Shown: positions 30,304 to 46,556 of the stretch, piece by piece | How positions within the stretch are numbered: position 1 is the first letter of the stretch | Layout: the number at the start of each line of letters is the position of its first letter | From: Thermoplasmatales archaeon SW_10_69_26 | Lineage (GTDB): Archaea > Thermoplasmatota > SW-10-69-26 | Length of the DNA: 64,000 nucleotides | Reading direction: 5' to 3' | Assembly: GCA_003009755.1 (NCBI GenBank) | Contig: PXUB01000001.1 | Coordinates: forward strand, 1-64,000 | Made by a program: the position numbers and the translations under genes | Notes under the pieces: model-generated | What the model was told of the DNA's origin: nothing | The model's database searches: none | Seen by the model: only the letters and a program-made list of their open reading frames with translations

Positions 30304-30523
30304 GAGCAGAGGGGAAGCCGGGTGGCGGCCCAAGAGCGTGCCGGCCAACGCCGTTGGTCTCGGTGGGTTGATGCGTGGGGTTCGTGCCCGTTGTCGCTGG
30401 GGCCATCCCATCTCCGCCCGATGGGCGCTCGAGCGGGCTTCCCATGGTGCCCCGCTTGGTCAACGGCAGTGGATCGTATCCCGTGAGCGGGGCTCGTCGA
30501 TCACTTCGTGCAAGCCCCCTGGT

Positions 30524-31203
30524 TCAGTCAGTGACCGTGATCTCCGTATCATACGGTGCCGCGCCACGAGCAATGCCGTGTACGAACCTTCCGATAAGCC
30601 TCCTTCCGAGAATCCTATATTGCCTGCGTCCTTTCTAATATCAGAGTCAACGATGTCGCCGTTGCTGTCGTACAGGTACATATCCAAATCGGAAGAGTAT
30701 ACGAGGCCGTTCTGCCCCAAGTTAGGAATTAACTCGTCGTCAGGAACGACATCTCGGCTTTCGTAGTTCACGTCTGCGTTGATGCGGCTGGCGTTCTGTC
30801 CGTCATCGTTCATTCCATCGAGGTGGATGCTGTATGTGACTGCGTTCCCGACGTGTTGGTGCTCGCCGTTCGGACCTGTATCCACTTCCATCCCAGCACC
30901 CGGTACAGACACGTTCTCACCCGTTGCCGGATTCTCAACGTGACCGCCAAGTGGACTAATAACCGGGCCGCCATACCCGGTTAACACACCCTAATCCGTG
31001 ACCTGGTACAGTCGATCACTGTTTTGATCCGCTGTATGCGCCGCGGCGTCTTGGACGGGTGCGAGGTCGGCGATGAGCGCTGTGATGTCATCTTCGGAGA
31101 CGCTTTCCAAGACCTGCGCAGCATATGCAGCGGCATGATCCCCGGTTACGTCATCATCCAGGAACACGGCATCAGCCGCAGCAGCTGCGCCGAACGCCAT
31201 CAC
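30524..31203 (-). pseudogene. Broken lower-GC gene for a secreted PPC-like protein
   Basis: Base composition and codon use here (TAT, ATA, TCA, TTA) differ sharply from the neighbours. An upstream piece (from 31203 or ATG 31200) encodes a short hydrophobic Ala-rich N terminus and DAVFLDDDVTGDHAAAYAAQ, and ends at an in-frame TAG at 30991-30993. Reading past that stop gives LTGYGGPVISPLGGHVENP and then SSDLDMYLYDSNGDIVDS, similar to bacterial pre-peptidase C-terminal (PPC) domains. Near 30595 the frame shifts, and the other frame supplies a natural end (FVHGIARGAAPYDTEITVTD, stop at 30524). It is a decayed or misread gene, probably foreign. Confidence 0.5.
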
Positions 31204-31406
31204 ACCGGCAAGGCGCAGGCCACGGCCCTGGACCGAGCGGCTTGCTGCGTGGCATCGTTCACCACTGCCCGGGCGTCGCGCATGACGCGGGGGAACGGGT
31301 CGGCGCTCGGGCTGCCCGCTCGCCGGGTGCGGATGCGGTGAAGCGTCCAGGCGATCAGGCCCACGAGCGTCGCGATCAGCCAGGCCAGGGTCCTCGCCTC
31401 CGCCAC
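31200..31406 (-). CDS. Small single-TM protein
   Basis: A 68-residue protein with one TM helix (TLAWLIATLVGLIAWTL) followed by a basic stretch (HRIRTRRAG) and a soluble tail. The frame is open to 31535, but the GTG at 31406 sits about 25 nt after a TATA-like AACGTTTACG (31425-31434), so this start was chosen. It overlaps the broken secreted-protein gene downstream by 4 nt. The function is unknown. Confidence 0.45.
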   Translation of the reverse strand: MAEARTLAWLIATLVGLIAWTLHRIRTRRAGSPSADPFPRVMRDARAVVNDATQQAARSRAVACALPV

Positions 31407-31531
31407 ATCGATCGGTTCGCGGTCGCGTAAACGTTTCGTCGTCAAGCGCGTGAACGACCAGCGTTTGCCGCCTCCAACGCGCCGGCGCGCTCGACGAACG
31501 CCTCGCGGTCCTCGGCCGTGCCCATCACTCG

Positions 31532-32053
31532 TCAATGGCTCGTTTTCGGGTTTGAACGTGTCGTTCGGGAGCCTACAGGCTCCGACGAAGCAGGGTCGGC
31601 CAGCTTGGCGACCGTGGATTCAGGCGCACGACTATCGATCCCGCTGGATCCACTCGACAACGCGCTTGGTCGACCAGACTCGATTCCACCATTCTCGAAG
31701 TCCTGCGCGTTCTGGGTCCAGATCCCCTCGCACGGCTGGGCTATAGCCAACGCCAGGAACGGAACGTCACCGGGATCCTGGTCCCCGATGCGGCGCTTAG
31801 CCTCGGGGAGTTGTTCCTCGAACGTCTCTCGCGGCACAACCTCGATATCCTCCGTGAGCAAGGCGAGCAGGAGCTCGACCCCGTCGATCGAGAGGCCGGA
31901 TCGCTCGGCGATCGCGTCAGCGTTGCGGCGGATCTCGGCAAGCATCCGCTCTGGTGCCAACAAGCCGAGCGGTGAATCGATCAAAAGCCCCCGCGTCGTG
32001 CCGTCGCGCAGGATTCCGGCGAAGAGGATGTTCGTGTCGACCACGAGTCTCAT
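31532..32053 (-). CDS. vapC: VapC-type PIN-domain toxin, frameshifted at the C terminus
   Basis: A PIN-domain ribonuclease toxin. Visible acidic residues are Asp6 (VVDTNILF), Glu about 41 (MLAEI) and Asp about 98 (DPGDVPFLALAIA), with WTQNAQDF later. These coordinate Mg ions that cleave RNA. The family end is spoiled: after FENGGIE the frame runs into Ser-rich sequence, whereas the neighbouring frame reads VWSTKRVVEWIQRDR and stops at 31632-31634. One extra base near 31680 would restore it. So the toxin may be inactive, or the sequence may have an error. It overlaps vapB by 4 nt (ATGA), forming the usual toxin-antitoxin operon. Confidence 0.8.
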   Translation of the reverse strand: MRLVVDTNILFAGILRDGTTRGLLIDSPLGLLAPERMLAEIRRNADAIAERSGLSIDGVELLLALLTEDIEVVPRETFEEQLPEAKRRIGDQDPGDVPFLALAIAQPCEGIWTQNAQDFENGGIESGRPSALSSGSSGIDSRAPESTVAKLADPASSEPVGSRTTRSNPKTSH

Positions 32054-32274
32054 GCAAGCTCGTACTCCTCGCCCATCCCCTGTTTGACGAGCGCGTCGAG
32101 TTCCTCGATGTCCTCGTCGGTGAGTTCGCTCTTCTCGGCGACCGCGTCCGCGATCGCGAGCTTCCGCAGGTGCTCCTGGACGGCTTTCCGCATCACCGCG
32201 CTCCAGTTCACCTCGTCGCGGCTGCGCATCTCCTCGCGCAAGTCCTCCGGGACGGAGACCGTCACGTTCGGCAT
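32050..32274 (-). CDS. vapB: VapB-type ribbon-helix-helix antitoxin
   Basis: A 74-residue antitoxin. The N-terminal strand-helix-helix (MPNVTVSVPEDLREEMRSRD, then VNWSAVMRKAVQEHL) is the archaeal RHH/CopG-like DNA-binding module. The acidic C terminus (ELTDEDIEELDALVKQGMGE) would wrap the toxin. In such operons the complex represses its own promoter. Its ATG follows AGGTGAAC and an AT-rich promoter with TTTACAAAG and AAATATTGC. The AT-rich promoter is unlike the rest of the region. Confidence 0.85.
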   Translation of the reverse strand: MPNVTVSVPEDLREEMRSRDEVNWSAVMRKAVQEHLRKLAIADAVAEKSELTDEDIEELDALVKQGMGEEYELA

Positions 32275-32859
32275 GTGTTCACCTGTGTAAGCAATATTTC
32301 TACTCCTTTGTAAATAAGCCTTCCTGTTGCCGAGAGTGCCCCGAAACCGCTCGGCCACAGCGCTTGAACAACTGGCAGCCGAGAACAAACACGAGCCTCG
32401 CGGAGGACCCGCGTCGCTCGCCACCGTCCCGCGACCACGGAGCCGCTGGGAACGACGAGATCGGTCTAAGACCCCCAAGCGCAAGATCACCGAGCTCGAG
32501 GACTCATCAAACGGATGATGACACACCCTAACACCTTGCCGCCGCGAGCGCGCCGGCGGGCGAGCGGAGACCCCGTCACCGGTCCGACAACCCGGCGCTG
32601 TCGAGGTGGCGATCGGCGCTGGCGAGCAGCGGGCCGACCACCGTGCGCCCTGGACCAAGCCCCCGAGCACGACCGATCCCTGCCGTGCCCGCTGGGGGCG
32701 TTCTCCCCACCTTGCATGGCGCCGTGACGCCAGCCCGCCGCTCGCCACGGGTTCCACCCGGACCGGCTCCGGTCGATTGAATCACCATCGAGCGCTTGCT
32801 CCTGAGATTCCCGGGCGAGGCCTAGAACATTTTTCTCCGTGCTTCTTTGTGTAAATACA
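32275..32859. other. Intergenic region with vapBC promoter, otherwise no gene
   Basis: 32280-32320 carries AT-rich promoter sequence for vapBC on the minus strand (CTTATTTAC and AAATATTGC). The remainder, to 32826, shows no supported gene. A plus-strand frame at 32327-32518 with a Lys/Arg-rich translation is weak and was not called. CATTTTTC at 32828-32835 is a likely TATA box for the lipoprotein gene at 32860. The region is a plausible accessory-region junction. Confidence 0.35.
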
Positions 32860-33354
32860 ATGTCTGCCTTACGAGTTCTTCTGGTTGCTGCCTGTCTTCT
32901 CTTCCCTCTGGGTTCGGGCTGCCTGTCGGACAGCCCCTCTTCGCCCTCCGAGCCTCGACCTCAGGCCACCCAGCCATCGCTCGACTTCACGTGGCACAAC
33001 CGAACCTGGAACGGTACCTTGGGGCAAGCGAACGTGTCCGGGAACCACGTAACCGAGCCATTGCTGACGGAGAATCGGTCGATCTCGTTCGAGGTTACGC
33101 CTGCGGTGGAGCGGATGGAACTCGAGATATCGGGGGGAGTGAGCGAGTTGAACCTTCGCATCGCGCCTCCCGACTGCACCGTCGAGCGCGCCGACGAGTG
33201 CGGGTGGGTCGTGCCGACGGAGAACATCGAGGCTCGCTGGCAGCAAGCCAACGTCTCAGCGGGGGTCTGGAACGCTCAGGTGAACATCCAGTCCACGGAG
33301 TCCACGACCCAGTACGAGATCGTGAAGCGCGTGAGGGTTCCGGTCGCTCCCTGA
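32860..33354 (+). CDS. Lipoprotein of unknown function
   Basis: A 164-residue exported lipoprotein. The signal sequence ends in the lipobox LGSGC (about residue 21). A Ser/Pro/Gln-rich linker follows and then a beta-rich domain (SFEVTPAVERMELEISGGV, NLRIAPPDC, EARWQQANVSAGVWNAQVNI). The last pattern recalls PPC-type or CARDB-like beta sandwiches. Five N-x-S/T sequons (NRT, NGT, NVS, NRS, NVS) suggest N-glycosylation. Two Cys in the mature region (PDCTVERADEC) could form a disulfide. Codon use is less GC-biased than the neighbours. An in-frame GTG at 32839 is an alternative start. Confidence 0.65.
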   Translation: MSALRVLLVAACLLFPLGSGCLSDSPSSPSEPRPQATQPSLDFTWHNRTWNGTLGQANVSGNHVTEPLLTENRSISFEVTPAVERMELEISGGVSELNLRIAPPDCTVERADECGWVVPTENIEARWQQANVSAGVWNAQVNIQSTESTTQYEIVKRVRVPVAP

Positions 33355-39856: not shown

Positions 39857-40002
39857 GGTCGCCGCGCCGTGGCGAGCTCGTGCGCGCGGGTGCAGGATGG
39901 CTGTGCCCCTCCCAAGCCCATTCCGACGGGGAGGACGTAACGTTTGCGGTCCCGGCCTCCGGCTCTCGGGGCCTCAGGGGGCCCGCAGGGGCTCAGCCGT
40001 GG

Positions 40003-40315
40003 GAGAGGGAAGGGATGACCCGGCCCCACGACGGGACCCGCTGCCGGCACCCAGGCGAGCGCGAGCTCCCCAGGCCCCGGCAGCGGGGGGATGCACACTG
40101 TGCGTATCGTCGATGGGATGTGGGATGGGACGGGTCGGGAGCCGGGTGGGCTTGGTGCCCACCGCCGCGATGGGCGTGTTGTATTTCAAAGCCGTGAAAG
40201 CTGACGAGAGGGAACGCCAACAGCCGGTTGCACGGTCTTCGGACGTTCAGATCGGACGTTTCCGTCGACACGGGAACCCCGTTCCAAGCGACGTCCTTCA
40301 CGACGTAGCCCCCGA
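40003..40315. repeat. Tandem repeat copy 1
   Basis: Begins GAGAGGGAAGGGATG..CCGGCCCCACGAC, has an insertion of about 45 nt not present in copy 2, then runs ATGCACACTGTGCGTA.. through GGTGGGCTTGGTGCCCACC (a perfect 7-bp hairpin), TTGTATTTCAAAGCC and GTGAAAGCTGAC to ACGTAGCC. The best-conserved part, about 100 nt around the hairpin, is nearly identical to copy 2. The flanking parts have diverged. Confidence 0.7.
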
Positions 40316-40421
40316 CGACCGCGGGTCGATCGAGGGACGAGCTGCGACGCTGACGCCGGCGAGGAGCGGGAGCAAGCGCCTCCAGCTCCCCGACGAGAGG
40401 GGAACCTGCAAGCGTGGCCGT

Positions 40422-40679
40422 GAGAGGAGAAGGATGGCCCGGCCCCACGACGCGGAGGGATGCACTGTGCGTACCGTCGATGGGATGTGGGATGGGACGG
40501 GCCGGGAGCCGGGTGGGCTTGGTGCCCACCCCCGCGATGAGGGTGTTGTATTTCAAAGCCGTGAAAGCTGACAGCAGGATACGCCAACCGCCGGTTGCAA
40601 GGCTTGTCGACGTTCAGACGCGGCGTTTCCGCTGACAAGCGAACCCCGTTCCAGGCGGCCTCCTTGACGATGTAACCCG
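40422..40679. repeat. Tandem repeat copy 2
   Basis: The second copy lies about 420 nt after the first. It keeps the same hairpin (GGTGGGC, TTGGT, GCCCACC) and the same TTGTATTTCAAAGCCGTGAA block. High identity in the hairpin core and lower identity in the flanks suggest selection on a structure or on a DNA site. Confidence 0.7.
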
Positions 40680-40874
40680 GCTCAGCGGTGGGCCCATCTT
40701 CCACTCCGAGCGGTGGATCGCAGCCCGGGCACCGCCGATGCAAGGCGAGGTGGTTGGGGTCGCAGCGGGCCACGAAGCGGGCGAGCCACGCCCGTGGTTG
40801 CCCGATGCAGCTGCTCGTGAGGCTAGGCTATCGTCCATCGCTTCCGGGGCCTCTCCCCAGCCGACGAGGGGCCC

Positions 40875-41639
40875 TCAGGGGTTCCGGAAGAGGAGCAACG
40901 AGCGCCCGACGCCGATCACGTCGCCGTGGGTGAGCTCGACCTCGTCGCCGCCGCGCAGCTCCTGGTCCCAGTTGACGATGGTGCCGTTGAGGCTCTCGGC
41001 GTCGCGCAGGCGGAACGTGCCGCCTTCGTGGGTGAGGACGGCGTGCTTGCGCGAGATGAACAGGTCGTACTCGAGGGGGACGTCGACCTCCTCGCCGCCC
41101 ACCTGGCGTTCGCGGCCGACCAGCCACTCCATCGGTTCGGCCTTGCTCCGCAACGGGAACACGCGGCCCTCGCGGATCCCGCGGATGAGGATGAGCTGGG
41201 CGAGCGCGTCCTCGGTCTCGGGGGTCTCGGGCTCGGATTGCTGGACGCGCGTGCGGTCGGGCACGCCGCCGGCGGCGGACTCCATGGCGAGGTTGCCCAG
41301 CGTGCGGACCTCCTCGAGCACCATGAACAGGTGGTCCTCGCGGGCGTAGTACTCCTTCGTGTGGCTGCCTTCGCCCTGGGCGACGCGGGTCTCGACGAGG
41401 TCGACCTCCTCGAGCTTGTCGATGTGGCTGAGGATCGCTTGACGGGTGAGGGGGATCTCGCGGGTGTCGCTCTCGGCGTCCTTGGACGTCTCCTCGCGGT
41501 AGGCCTCGATCTCGCCCACGTTCTTCGGTGTGGTGAGCTGGCGGAGGATGTCGAGGCGTTGGCGGTTGCCGAGCGCGGAGAGGACCAGGGACAGGCGCTC
41601 GGTGTCCACCTTGCCACCGGGGGATTGGGGATCCGGCAT
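40875..41639 (-). CDS. Winged-helix regulator with FHA phosphothreonine-binding domain
   Basis: A 254-residue two-domain regulator. Residues 12-110 form an ArsR-type winged helix (LVLSALGNRQRLDILRQLT, TRQAILSHIDKLEEVDLVET). Residues 165-254 form an FHA domain with the signature GR (WLVGRERQ), SRKH (DLFISRKHAVL) and NG (LRDAESLNGTIVN), which binds phosphothreonine peptides. This is the natural output domain for a Ser/Thr kinase. Such a kinase lies next on the same strand across a 1-kb duplicated spacer. A likely model is kinase-dependent control of DNA binding or of partner docking. The ATG at 41639 was chosen because the upstream frame is Arg/Pro-rich. Confidence 0.9.
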   Translation of the reverse strand: MPDPQSPGGKVDTERLSLVLSALGNRQRLDILRQLTTPKNVGEIEAYREETSKDAESDTREIPLTRQAILSHIDKLEEVDLVETRVAQGEGSHTKEYYAREDHLFMVLEEVRTLGNLAMESAAGGVPDRTRVQQSEPETPETEDALAQLILIRGIREGRVFPLRSKAEPMEWLVGRERQVGGEEVDVPLEYDLFISRKHAVLTHEGGTFRLRDAESLNGTIVNWDQELRGGDEVELTHGDVIGVGRSLLLFRNP

Positions 41640-41788
41640 CGCGCTGGCAAGGGGACAGGGAGGGTTTCGGTGTTTCGGGTGGGTACGGGGTGGACCGAAC
41701 AGATGGCGGACCGCTCTCGGACCTGGGAACCGCCGGTCCCCGTGATGGTCTCTCCCGACGCAAGGGGGAGACTGACCGCGAGGGAGAC

Positions 41789-42280
41789 ATGCTAGATCTG
41801 CGGTGGGACCGACGAACGGCGAACGATGGAGACCGCCCGCGGGACCGCAACCGTCGGACGTTGACCGTGTGCGAGGCCTGCCTGGGCCAGCGCACCGCCA
41901 AGCGCTGGCACGCCGACGGCAGCAAGAGCTATCGGTGGGCCGAAGCTTCGACCGAGACACCGCACGCGCATCCGCAGGATCGCTACGCCTACCTGGCGGA
42001 CGCCGATGAAGTGAGCCTGGTCCGTCTCCAGCAGGCCTGGATCGACACGCACGCCGCCACGGCCTCGCGCCGGAACGAACGAGTTAACCGACCCCTTCCG
42101 TCTGGGCCGGCGTGGACGGCTCTCGCCGCTGGTGGTGGCCGGCCATGGCCCTGCTGGCGCTCGGGCTCGTGGCTGGGACCGTCACCGCTCACGTCGAGTA
42201 CGTGGCCTCCGAGGGCGACCCCGTCGGCCCCCTGGACCTGTGGGGAGCCGTGGCCTCGGACCCGCTGGGCCTCACCCTGA
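41789..42280 (+). CDS. Doubtful hypothetical protein overlapping the next gene
   Basis: Residues 1-105 of this frame look protein-like (TVCEACLGQRTAKRW, then YLADADEVSLVRLQQAWIDT). The remaining part runs out of frame through the membrane-protein gene that starts at 42112 and becomes Trp/Pro-rich. Either the true gene is shorter, with a sequence error hiding its stop, or the frame is spurious. One CxxC is the only motif. Confidence 0.3.
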   Translation: MLDLRWDRRTANDGDRPRDRNRRTLTVCEACLGQRTAKRWHADGSKSYRWAEASTETPHAHPQDRYAYLADADEVSLVRLQQAWIDTHAATASRRNERVNRPLPSGPAWTALAAGGGRPWPCWRSGSWLGPSPLTSSTWPPRATPSAPWTCGEPWPRTRWASP

Positions 42281-44344: not shown

Positions 44345-44895
44345 TCAGCTCTCGTCGACGGGGTGGCAGACGTCGTGGTTGGCCTCACCGTCGACGGCGA
44401 TGTGGCCGACCAGGCCCTTGTTCATCCGGAAGGTCGAGTGGTCGACCGGGATGTAGGTGCCCGACACCTCGAACGTCATCTCCACGCCGACGGCACCGCC
44501 GGCGGGCACCAGCGTGCTTTGCACGTTCTCGTTGACGAGGGCGAAGCTGCCCTCGACGTACACGCGGTCGGAGATCTCGCCGATCATGTGGAAGCTGGAC
44601 ACCAGGTGGGCCCGTGTTGCCCATGTACAGGCGCGCGGTGTCGTTCACCGTCAGGTTCGTGTCGTAGGCCCCAGCGCGCGGTTGCCGGTGATGCTGTCGG
44701 GGCGGCCGTTCCAGTTTACGAACGTCGGCTCCTCGAGGTTGCCCTGGGCGGCATCGAAGTCGAGGTGGCCGCTGCCTTCGAGCGCGGCGAGGCTCTCGTC
44801 GCCCTTGGCTTCGGAGTAGTATGCGCTTTACATCTTGTATTACTCCTCGTCGACCGCGGGCAGGCCCTCGGTGGTTCTGGGTAGGTTGGAGTGGG
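44345..44895 (-). pseudogene. nirK: C-terminal remnant of copper nitrite reductase (NirK)
   Basis: Joined across frames, the minus strand reads like the second cupredoxin domain of NirK: GLPAVDEE, YYSEAKGDESLAALEG, EEPTFVNWNGRPDSITGNRA, LTVNDTARLYMGNTG, SSFHMIGEISDRVYVEG, NVQSTLVPAGGA, GTYIPVDHSTFRMNKG. The last blocks contain the His typical of NirK. The frame is broken by two in-frame TAA codons near 44826-44846, one base missing from GGGG near 44670 and one from a CCC run near 44610. The gene cannot make a full enzyme. Its first cupredoxin domain is missing, and the lower-GC cassette begins at about 44895. Confidence 0.75.
44813..44846. repeat. 9-bp inverted repeat within the nirK remnant
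   Basis: GGAGTAGTA (44813-44821) and TATTACTCC (44838-44846) are inverted with one mismatch and an AT-richer 16-nt loop. It sits exactly where the nirK remnant acquires two stop codons. It may mark a rearrangement scar, or be chance symmetry of the repeated YYS codons. Confidence 0.3.
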
Positions 44896-44939
44896 CGGCG
44901 GGCTTGTCAGTCGGCTGTGAGATTCGGGCCGCGGACCCG

Positions 44940-45125
44940 ATGCGGAGAACGCTTGATGGATTGGCCAAGGATCTCTGTGCTCGTGGGTTCGAAGTGCCGG
45001 GAGATCCTGAGTTCCAATCGAAACGAACAGCGCGGGCCTGGTGCAGATGGATCGCGTCCGATAAGCCTAATTGGTGTCACACGGTCGAGCACGTGCGTGC
45101 CAAACTCGGACGAGTGGATCCGTAA
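44940..45125 (+). CDS. Small hypothetical protein of the cassette
   Basis: A 61-residue protein (MRRTLDGLAKDLCARGFEVP, ending TVEHVRAKLGRVDP) with predicted helices. No family was recognised. Codon use is less GC-biased than in flanking chromosomal genes. It ends 29 nt inside the cyclase-like gene in another frame, so the two could be coupled. The frame stays open upstream to 44835, but the ATG at 44940 gives the more protein-like start. Confidence 0.4.
   Translation: MRRTLDGLAKDLCARGFEVPGDPEFQSKRTARAWCRWIASDKPNWCHTVEHVRAKLGRVDP
45063..45072 (+). promoter_or_regulatory. TATA box of the cyclase-like gene
   Basis: AAGCCTAATT lies 25-34 nt before the GTG at 45097, the usual distance for a leaderless archaeal transcript. 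It supports that start and suggests the cassette gene is expressed. Confidence 0.45.
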
Positions 45126-45786
45126 GGACGAGCCGCCAGAGGAGGTGTACCTCTGCCTCCTCGATGTTCTCGGATTCCGGAGCTTCGTACACGGGAAGCA
45201 TCTCAGGACCGTAGCCAAGGCGCTTGGTGATGCTAAGGCCAAAAGCTCGCAGGAGATCCCCGACGATGTGGACGACGAGCATGCGCCAGAATCGCTGATG
45301 TTCAGTGACTCGGTGCTATTTTGGGCTGACGGGGAGGACGCGTCCCACTTGGACGGACTGGCGCGAACGGCACAGTCCTTCTACGCGGCGCTGTTCCAGG
45401 ACGGTCTCTTGCTCCGCGGAGCGATCGTGAGAGGAGAGCTTTCGATCGCCAGTGAGGGCGAGGTAATCGTCGGGGAGGGATTGATTCGAGCCTACGAGCT
45501 CGAGCAGGGCCAGAAGTGGGGCGGGATCGTTCTTGACCCCCGTCTCAGCCGGGACGGGGTCGACGGACTCGACGATCTCCACGACCAGGGTGTCCTCGTT
45601 GAGCACGACGTGCCCTGGGCGTCGAACCCGAGCCCTCGGCCTCATACGGTGGTCTGCTGGCCCGAGAACTGCCAAGTCACTCGTGCGGAGCTTCGGGAGG
45701 CCTTTTACGACTCCTTCCCCAAGATGGCAGAGGACGGGCGGGCGAAGCTCGCCGCTACGCTCCAATTCTTCGATGAGTACGCCTAG
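45097..45786 (+). CDS. Class III nucleotidyl-cyclase-like protein
   Basis: A 229-residue soluble protein. Its order of motifs matches a class III cyclase-like fold: a first strand with an acidic residue (YLCLLDVLGFRSFV), a beta-hairpin with a second one (ESLMFSDSVLFW), then LLLRGAIVRGEL and VGEGLIRAYELEQGQKWG. In classical cyclases two Asp at such positions bind the metal ions. Related stand-alone proteins occur widely and unannotated in bacterial genomes, some near defence genes. That last point is recalled rather than checked. It sits in a lower-GC cassette inside a dead nitrite reductase gene, with an own leaderless promoter. The C-terminal 70 residues are helical. Nucleotide specificity and activity are unknown. 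Confidence 0.6.
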   Translation: MPNSDEWIRKDEPPEEVYLCLLDVLGFRSFVHGKHLRTVAKALGDAKAKSSQEIPDDVDDEHAPESLMFSDSVLFWADGEDASHLDGLARTAQSFYAALFQDGLLLRGAIVRGELSIASEGEVIVGEGLIRAYELEQGQKWGGIVLDPRLSRDGVDGLDDLHDQGVLVEHDVPWASNPSPRPHTVVCWPENCQVTRAELREAFYDSFPKMAEDGRAKLAATLQFFDEYA

Positions 45787-46133
45787 CTCCCTGACTCCGA
45801 GGGAAGAGGGAAACGATCCACAACAGACCCTGTAGGCGTCAGAAGCACGAGTTCAAGACGGTCTTCCTTCTGGACGGCTGCATGGACAACTCGGGGAATA
45901 TCCATCGAGATCTGTACTGGAGAGGGGTCCTGGTGCTCATCCGACCAGCGGAACTTCATCGTGTGCTGGGATTTGGACGCGGTGAGCACGATCTCCCCGC
46001 CTTCCCGCTGAACAGCTAGGTTGAAGCCCTTCTCTCCGGTAGCTTCATACTCTTTGGCGCCCTCTAGCCAGGAGTCAAGGCGCTCGAAGGCACGCCGTAG
46101 CGGGACATGCCCGAAGGTTGCAGAGGAGGGCAC
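45783..46133 (-). CDS. Hypothetical protein of the cassette
   Basis: A 116-residue soluble protein with an alpha-helical first third (PLRRAFERLDSWLEGAKEYE) and a beta-rich remainder (GFNLAVQREGGEIVLTASKS, ELVLLTPTGSVVDRF). No family was recognised. It has a GTG start with a TATA-like CCTAACATAGG (46153-46163) about 26 nt upstream. It converges on the cyclase-like gene with a 4-nt stop overlap. Its lower-GC codons place it in the same cassette. Confidence 0.55.
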   Translation of the reverse strand: MPSSATFGHVPLRRAFERLDSWLEGAKEYEATGEKGFNLAVQREGGEIVLTASKSQHTMKFRWSDEHQDPSPVQISMDIPRVVHAAVQKEDRLELVLLTPTGSVVDRFPLPSESGS

Positions 46134-46174
46134 GATACGATAGTGTGTGCCAACCTATGTTAGGCTTTTGTGGT

Positions 46175-46556
46175 ACGTCCGCAAGGAGGCAGCCTCCGGC
46201 GCGGTCGACACTGCCGGCGTCGTTCCCGTCCTCTCAACGGGCCCACTCGGTGTCGGCCGGCATGTCGGAGGGATGGCGGCTGATCTCGTCGATCGTGACC
46301 TCCTCGGGCTCGCCGAACGCGTGCTCGGAGCCGGCCTCGCCTTCGGCGTCGGCCGCCTGTCCCTCCTCGTGCACGATCACGGTGCCGACCATGCCCTGCA
46401 TCTGGCCCTCGTCGCCCTCGGTGGCGTGCGGGATGCAGTGGTAGCTGTACGTGCCGGTGGCCTGGAAGGCGTGCTCTCAGGACGTCTCGGCTGCCAGCCA
46501 GTCGTCGGGGTCCTCGCCGCTGCCTTCGACGCCCCACCGCACTTGGCGTCCGAGGG
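46175..46556 (-). pseudogene. nirK: Halocyanin-like domain and NirK N-terminal remnant
   Basis: The minus strand reads the end of a halocyanin-like cupredoxin domain (VRWGVEGSGEDPDDWLAAET, then EHAFQATGTYSYHCIPHA and GQMQGMVGTVIVHEEG). This gives the Cys, His and Met copper ligands. A linker and VTIDEISRHPSDMPADTEWA follow, which resembles the start of NirK (ITRDPTDVPPP-like). An in-frame TGA (46477-46479) splits the copper domain and another TGA lies at 46234-46236, after which the other frame continues as VERTGTTPAVST. The first 50-60 residues of the domain are missing. It is the 5' part of the same fusion gene whose 3' part is at 44345-44895. Confidence 0.7.

Follow-up and report, generated by a model that had tools for sequence, protein, structure and literature searches.

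Several known anti-phage systems run on signalling nucleotides, and those found so far draw on few enzyme families. Pycsar combines a class III pyrimidine cyclase, PycC, with a receptor effector, and the Panoptes mCpol and Cas10-type palm proteins are small nucleotidyl-cyclase/palm-like proteins that act in phage defence. In canonical class III cyclases, recognised positions are occupied by a base-selecting Lys and by a transition-state Asn and Arg, together with two metal-binding Asp residues. In the DUF2652 family, a Lys-Glu pair and the transition-state Arg are reported to be retained by the mycobacterial proteins (PMC4886424).

The window analysed in this study is a stretch of 64,000 nucleotides from Thermoplasmatales archaeon SW_10_69_26, and the assembly around it is archaeal, comprising 2.8 Mb in 49 contigs. 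An earlier sequence-only reading had described a lower-GC cassette within a dead nirK gene and proposed that its cyclase-like gene belonged to a mobile signalling or defence module. The features of the locus are listed below with their window coordinates and strand.

44345..44866, minus strand: NirK domain 2, the 3' part of a dead halocyanin-NirK fusion gene (tblastn, reading frames)
44867..46236, no strand: foreign low-GC segment replacing NirK cupredoxin domain 1 (GC; flank alignments to L072:2869-4284)
44940..45125, plus strand: 61-aa open reading frame (ORF) that overlaps the cyclase-like gene and is unlikely to be a gene (codon-position GC)
45097..45786, plus strand: 229-aa protein with a predicted class III nucleotidyl cyclase fold (AlphaFold2, Foldseek, hhalign; putative GTG start)
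45163..45165, plus strand: Asp23 codon, predicted metal ligand 1, in DVLGF (82/82 relatives; hhalign)
45307..45309, plus strand: Asp71 codon, predicted metal ligand 2, in FSDS (82/82 relatives; hhalign)
45415..45417, plus strand: Arg107 codon, in RGAI, a conserved Arg/Lys (of 82 relatives, 75 have Arg and 5 have Lys)
45783..46133, minus strand: convergent 116-aa ORF, an orphan and possibly a real gene (no relatives, no family, weak coding character)
46237..46548, minus strand: halocyanin-type part of the dead halocyanin-NirK fusion gene (tblastn, reading frames)

The 229-codon gene is intact, contains the DVLGF, FSDS and RGAI motifs to which attention had been drawn, and is a member of a real family. 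An AlphaFold2 model based on an alignment of the window protein with 36 relatives had a mean pLDDT of 88.6 and a pTM of 0.86. The 50 matches listed by Foldseek against the PDB were all class III cyclase entries, with E values of 1.4e-6 and up and TM scores of about 0.5, a level of similarity that shows a common fold and not a common activity. When the family profile was compared to five canonical cyclases with hhalign (E 5.4e-6, probability 86%), D23 and D71 were placed on the two metal Asp residues, with D71 falling on the Asp of MGD. The cyclase guess originally made from two Asp motifs is thus upheld by structure prediction and profile comparison alike, and both Asp residues are invariant, as is G108 (82/82 aligned family members). 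The base-selecting Lys is absent, its position being L67 in the window protein and variable across the family, and neither member of the transition-state pair, Asn and Arg, is present, their positions holding I130 and E134 in the window protein and I/V/T and K/E/L/Q in the family. The predicted fold and metal site of the family are well supported, and canonical cyclase chemistry is not supported by the residues present. With these three canonical residues gone, the family may have no cyclase activity; a non-canonical product, destruction of nucleoside triphosphates (NTPs) and a protein that only binds nucleotide are all possible.

No model in Pfam, NCBIfam or PADLOC matches the window protein or covers the family. 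PF00211 gave 0 matches above its cut-off for the window protein and made sub-threshold contact with 4 of 37 family members (best E 0.012). In PHROGs, the phage members correspond to phrog_23933, which is listed as 'unknown function' and matches over the core domain, the window protein at E 1.1e-7 and other members at values as low as 4e-37. Nearly all members are 210-310 aa in length and have no extra domain; one relative of 613 aa (L056:7029-8870) has its cyclase-like domain in the C-terminal half, after ~320 residues of unassigned sequence. No canonical class III cyclase was found in the host genome. Additional searches led nowhere, including those of viral contigs with P0001 and a two-row alignment, a scan with a nine-row alignment, tblastn of two family members in phage isolates, and a profile search of PDB sequences. 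A description of the family was not found in the literature searched, outside which lay most subscription papers and preprints; the fold is already known, and none of the curated libraries searched has a name for the family.

Judged from alignments of its flanks, the low-GC segment lies between the two ends of a single dead halocyanin-NirK gene. The reference for both flanks was an intact 471-aa halocyanin-NirK fusion from a genome of the same class (L072:2869-4284), to which 44866-44369 on the minus strand aligns over residues 306-459 (tblastn, E 5e-23) and 46545-46351 on the minus strand over residues 88-152 (tblastn, E 1.5e-13). The NirK domain 2 piece begins with two in-frame stops and contains two frameshifts, and the halocyanin-type piece has one in-frame stop and has lost its N-terminal half. 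The host gene is therefore dead, as had been claimed. Of the two minus-strand nirK-like halves reported earlier, the left one stands, while the right one is not NirK proper and covers the C-terminal half of a halocyanin-type domain that precedes NirK in the fusion. The missing part, roughly residues 170-305 (~135 codons), is the first cupredoxin domain of NirK, including the YHC copper motif, which indicates that the segment replaced DNA and did not merely interrupt it, so that the event was a loss as well as a gain; with these codons gone, a simple insertion into an intact nirK is ruled out. No other NirK-like copy besides this decayed gene was found in the host genome. A misassembly at the locus is unlikely, since the pieces on either side come from a single gene and keep its order and orientation.

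The GC content of the segment is 61.0%, compared to 70.6% for the window, bearing out the lower GC noted previously, and third-position GC is 0.77 in the cyclase-like gene versus 0.89-0.94 in flanking genes. A cassette is thus present, although its borders, originally set at 44895 and 46175, should be moved to about 44867 and 46236. Neither a target-site duplication nor a terminal inverted repeat was convincing at these borders; the candidate transposon ends were just short repeats such as chance would give, and part of a 10-bp inverted pair at 44849/46200 belongs to the old gene. Near the window copy there was no defence neighbour, no integrase and no recognisable element end.

Elsewhere in the window, a second low-GC patch (30400-33300, GC about 0.61) lies between the DNA ligase and SRP54 genes, and a PIN-domain gene on the minus strand (31532-32053) follows a small VapB-like ORF, making up a probable VapBC toxin-antitoxin pair. 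Two overlapping minus-strand ORFs at 39993-40773 have a direct repeat in common, HGFEIQH.HRGGGHQAHPAP..SHPTSHRRYAQC, and the gene at 40875-41960 combines an N-terminal HTH-like region with a C-terminal FHA domain and is near a kinase, a possible phospho-signalling pair.

The convergent gene had been put forward as a possible partner of the cyclase-like gene, and here the sequence-only reading fared less well. The small upstream gene (44940-45125) has codon-position GC values of 0.61/0.53/0.56, without a gene-like pattern, and marginal matches only (the best foreign one reaching E 0.003 in a single genome); with the coding pattern absent, it was ruled out as an operon partner. The convergent 116-residue ORF does exist, but its coding character is weak, it has no relative in 194 genomes and no family match, and its single-sequence structure model has a pLDDT of 44. 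Being an orphan that does not recur near relatives, it was ruled out as the second half of a defence pair. A survey of the relatives' loci found that neither adjacent ORF recurs and that there is no constant neighbour gene family. No nucleotide-sensing effector gene recurs beside the relatives either, the neighbours in the window being orphan or non-coding. The sole recurring neighbour type was the OLD/Gabija-type AAA ATPases (OLD/AAA_15), seen at four loci (L009, L047, L051 and L056), with the ATPase gene ending 3 bases ahead of the cyclase-like gene in L051 and 9 in L056. In addition, the cyclase-like gene adjoins a ResIII-type restriction endonuclease in L052 and a tyrosine integrase in L050. 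Many bacterial relatives adjoin ordinary housekeeping genes, and most bacterial loci are outside evident defence islands, those with OLD/Gabija or restriction neighbours being a minority by raw counts.

Relatives were identified in 14 of the 390 genomes examined from the host phylum, in 35 contigs spanning bacteria and archaea, on plasmids, and in about 34 viral contigs, some of them near-identical. The family tree departs from taxonomy: a single clade with support of 100/100 and short tips unites an Altiarchaeales archaeon with one member each of Bacillota and Chloroflexota. The long branch of the window protein makes its own placement uncertain. These findings support a family that moves horizontally between phyla and domains, and the earlier suggestion of a mobile module accords with the patchy distribution, the inter-domain transfer and the prophage and plasmid copies.

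The positions of the family's genes in P2-like prophages were read against the P2 map, on which orf30 is nonessential. Family members were located beside the portal gene Q (L099, L104, L124), on the opposite strand in the S-V interval, which is the position of P2 orf30 (L125, L127, L130), beside D (L091), between FII and T in near-identical contigs (L092-L094), and beside an int-like gene (L106). The Q-site copy in L124 is about 60% identical to the orf30-site copies in L125, L127 and L130, indicating that one gene lineage has used two cargo sites. Variable non-core positions between conserved phage genes are thus occupied by the prophage relatives, though not by the window copy. It is also important to note that prophage cargo includes toxins, partition genes and metabolic genes. 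Gene A was not found on the far side in the Q-side contigs, two of the three of which end close by. The gpA-gpQ interval is a hotspot for anti-phage systems, and P2 itself carries old and tin there (PMC9122126). On positional grounds, namely the P2 cargo sites and the A-Q hotspot together with some OLD/Gabija and restriction neighbours, a defence role for the family is plausible.

The explanation favoured here, to which we assign a probability of roughly one half, is that the window protein is a stand-alone, horizontally moving class III cyclase-fold enzyme that serves as an anti-phage accessory and that replaced part of a halocyanin-NirK gene. The cyclase fold and the mobility are supported by computation; we infer defence and catalysis, and the family is probably an anti-phage accessory. 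Lateral transfer would have brought the segment to the archaeon, replacing part of the now dead gene. The protein would bind a nucleoside triphosphate with divalent metal in a two-metal-dependent manner, and its turnover of NTP would be non-canonical, giving a cyclic or linear nucleotide product or a loss of the nucleotide pool. Mobile elements would then carry it as an accessory factor that excludes rival phages. A stronger form of this proposal can be put forward only tentatively: that the family, found in bacteria and archaea as well as prophages, would be a new anti-phage system made up of one gene, in which a two-metal cyclase-fold enzyme that uses neither the canonical base selector nor the transition-state pair makes an unusual nucleotide product or destroys NTP on infection.

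There are several other potential explanations. The family-wide loss of the Lys and the Asn/Arg with retention of the metal Asp, along with the location of the family in prophages, would fit a pseudoenzyme whose cyclase fold retains the pocket for nucleotide and metal but binds nucleotide and makes none, acting as a sensor or sponge for defence signals and, when carried by a phage, in counter-defence. This is rather unlikely, as the metal Asp residues are strictly invariant, a pattern typical of catalysis, and a sponge has no obvious need of two metal ligands; moreover, members are found on chromosomes and plasmids as well, where OLD and restriction genes adjoin them. The class III fold and the many housekeeping neighbours in bacteria could instead reflect an ordinary host enzyme of cyclic-nucleotide signalling, laterally transferred by chance and unrelated to phage. 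However, nearly all relatives of the host are without the gene, nearly all members are without an extra domain, there is no constant neighbour, copies occupy prophage cargo positions, and a canonical class III cyclase is absent from the host, so that this explanation is improbable. Equally improbable is that a mobile element left the window copy behind as a non-functional remnant with no present role. Such a remnant would be expected to sit, as this copy does, in a dead gene without element genes or ends, and the low GC suggests a fairly recent arrival, but the 229-codon frame is intact with all family motifs, whereas no fewer than three stops and two frameshifts disrupt the surrounding gene.

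The family is a directly testable candidate for a further nucleotide-based anti-phage system, being widespread and combining strict metal ligands with a missing canonical catalytic set and a location in prophage defence slots. In addition, a gene family known here as prophage cargo is seen in chromosomes of archaea.

Compared to the described systems, the family has the predicted fold, the topology and both metal Asp residues in common with class III cyclases (PF00211; e.g., CyaC of Arthrospira (Spirulina) platensis, PDB 1wc4/2bw7), and the IGI..G strand of the latter is aligned with its Gly-rich strand, but it lacks their base-selecting Lys, transition-state Asn/Arg and regulatory domains. 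The class III cyclase fold and a link to mobile elements are also features of Pycsar, from which the family differs in having no adjacent receptor effector gene and no match to the PADLOC models for Pycsar, nor to those for CBASS. Like Panoptes mCpol and the Cas10-type palm proteins, the family consists of a small nucleotidyl-cyclase-like protein; however, Foldseek ranks class III cyclases for it and not Cas10/GGDEF, and, unlike mCpol, it has neither a partner effector gene nor a PADLOC match. DUF2652 is likewise a single-domain, divergent class III cyclase of about 250 aa (PMC4886424), although its Pfam model matches no family member examined here. DUF2652, Pycsar and mCpol were each considered as the identity of the family and set aside on these differences. 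PHROG 23933 does match the core domain in sequence, and the family described here reaches far beyond phages.
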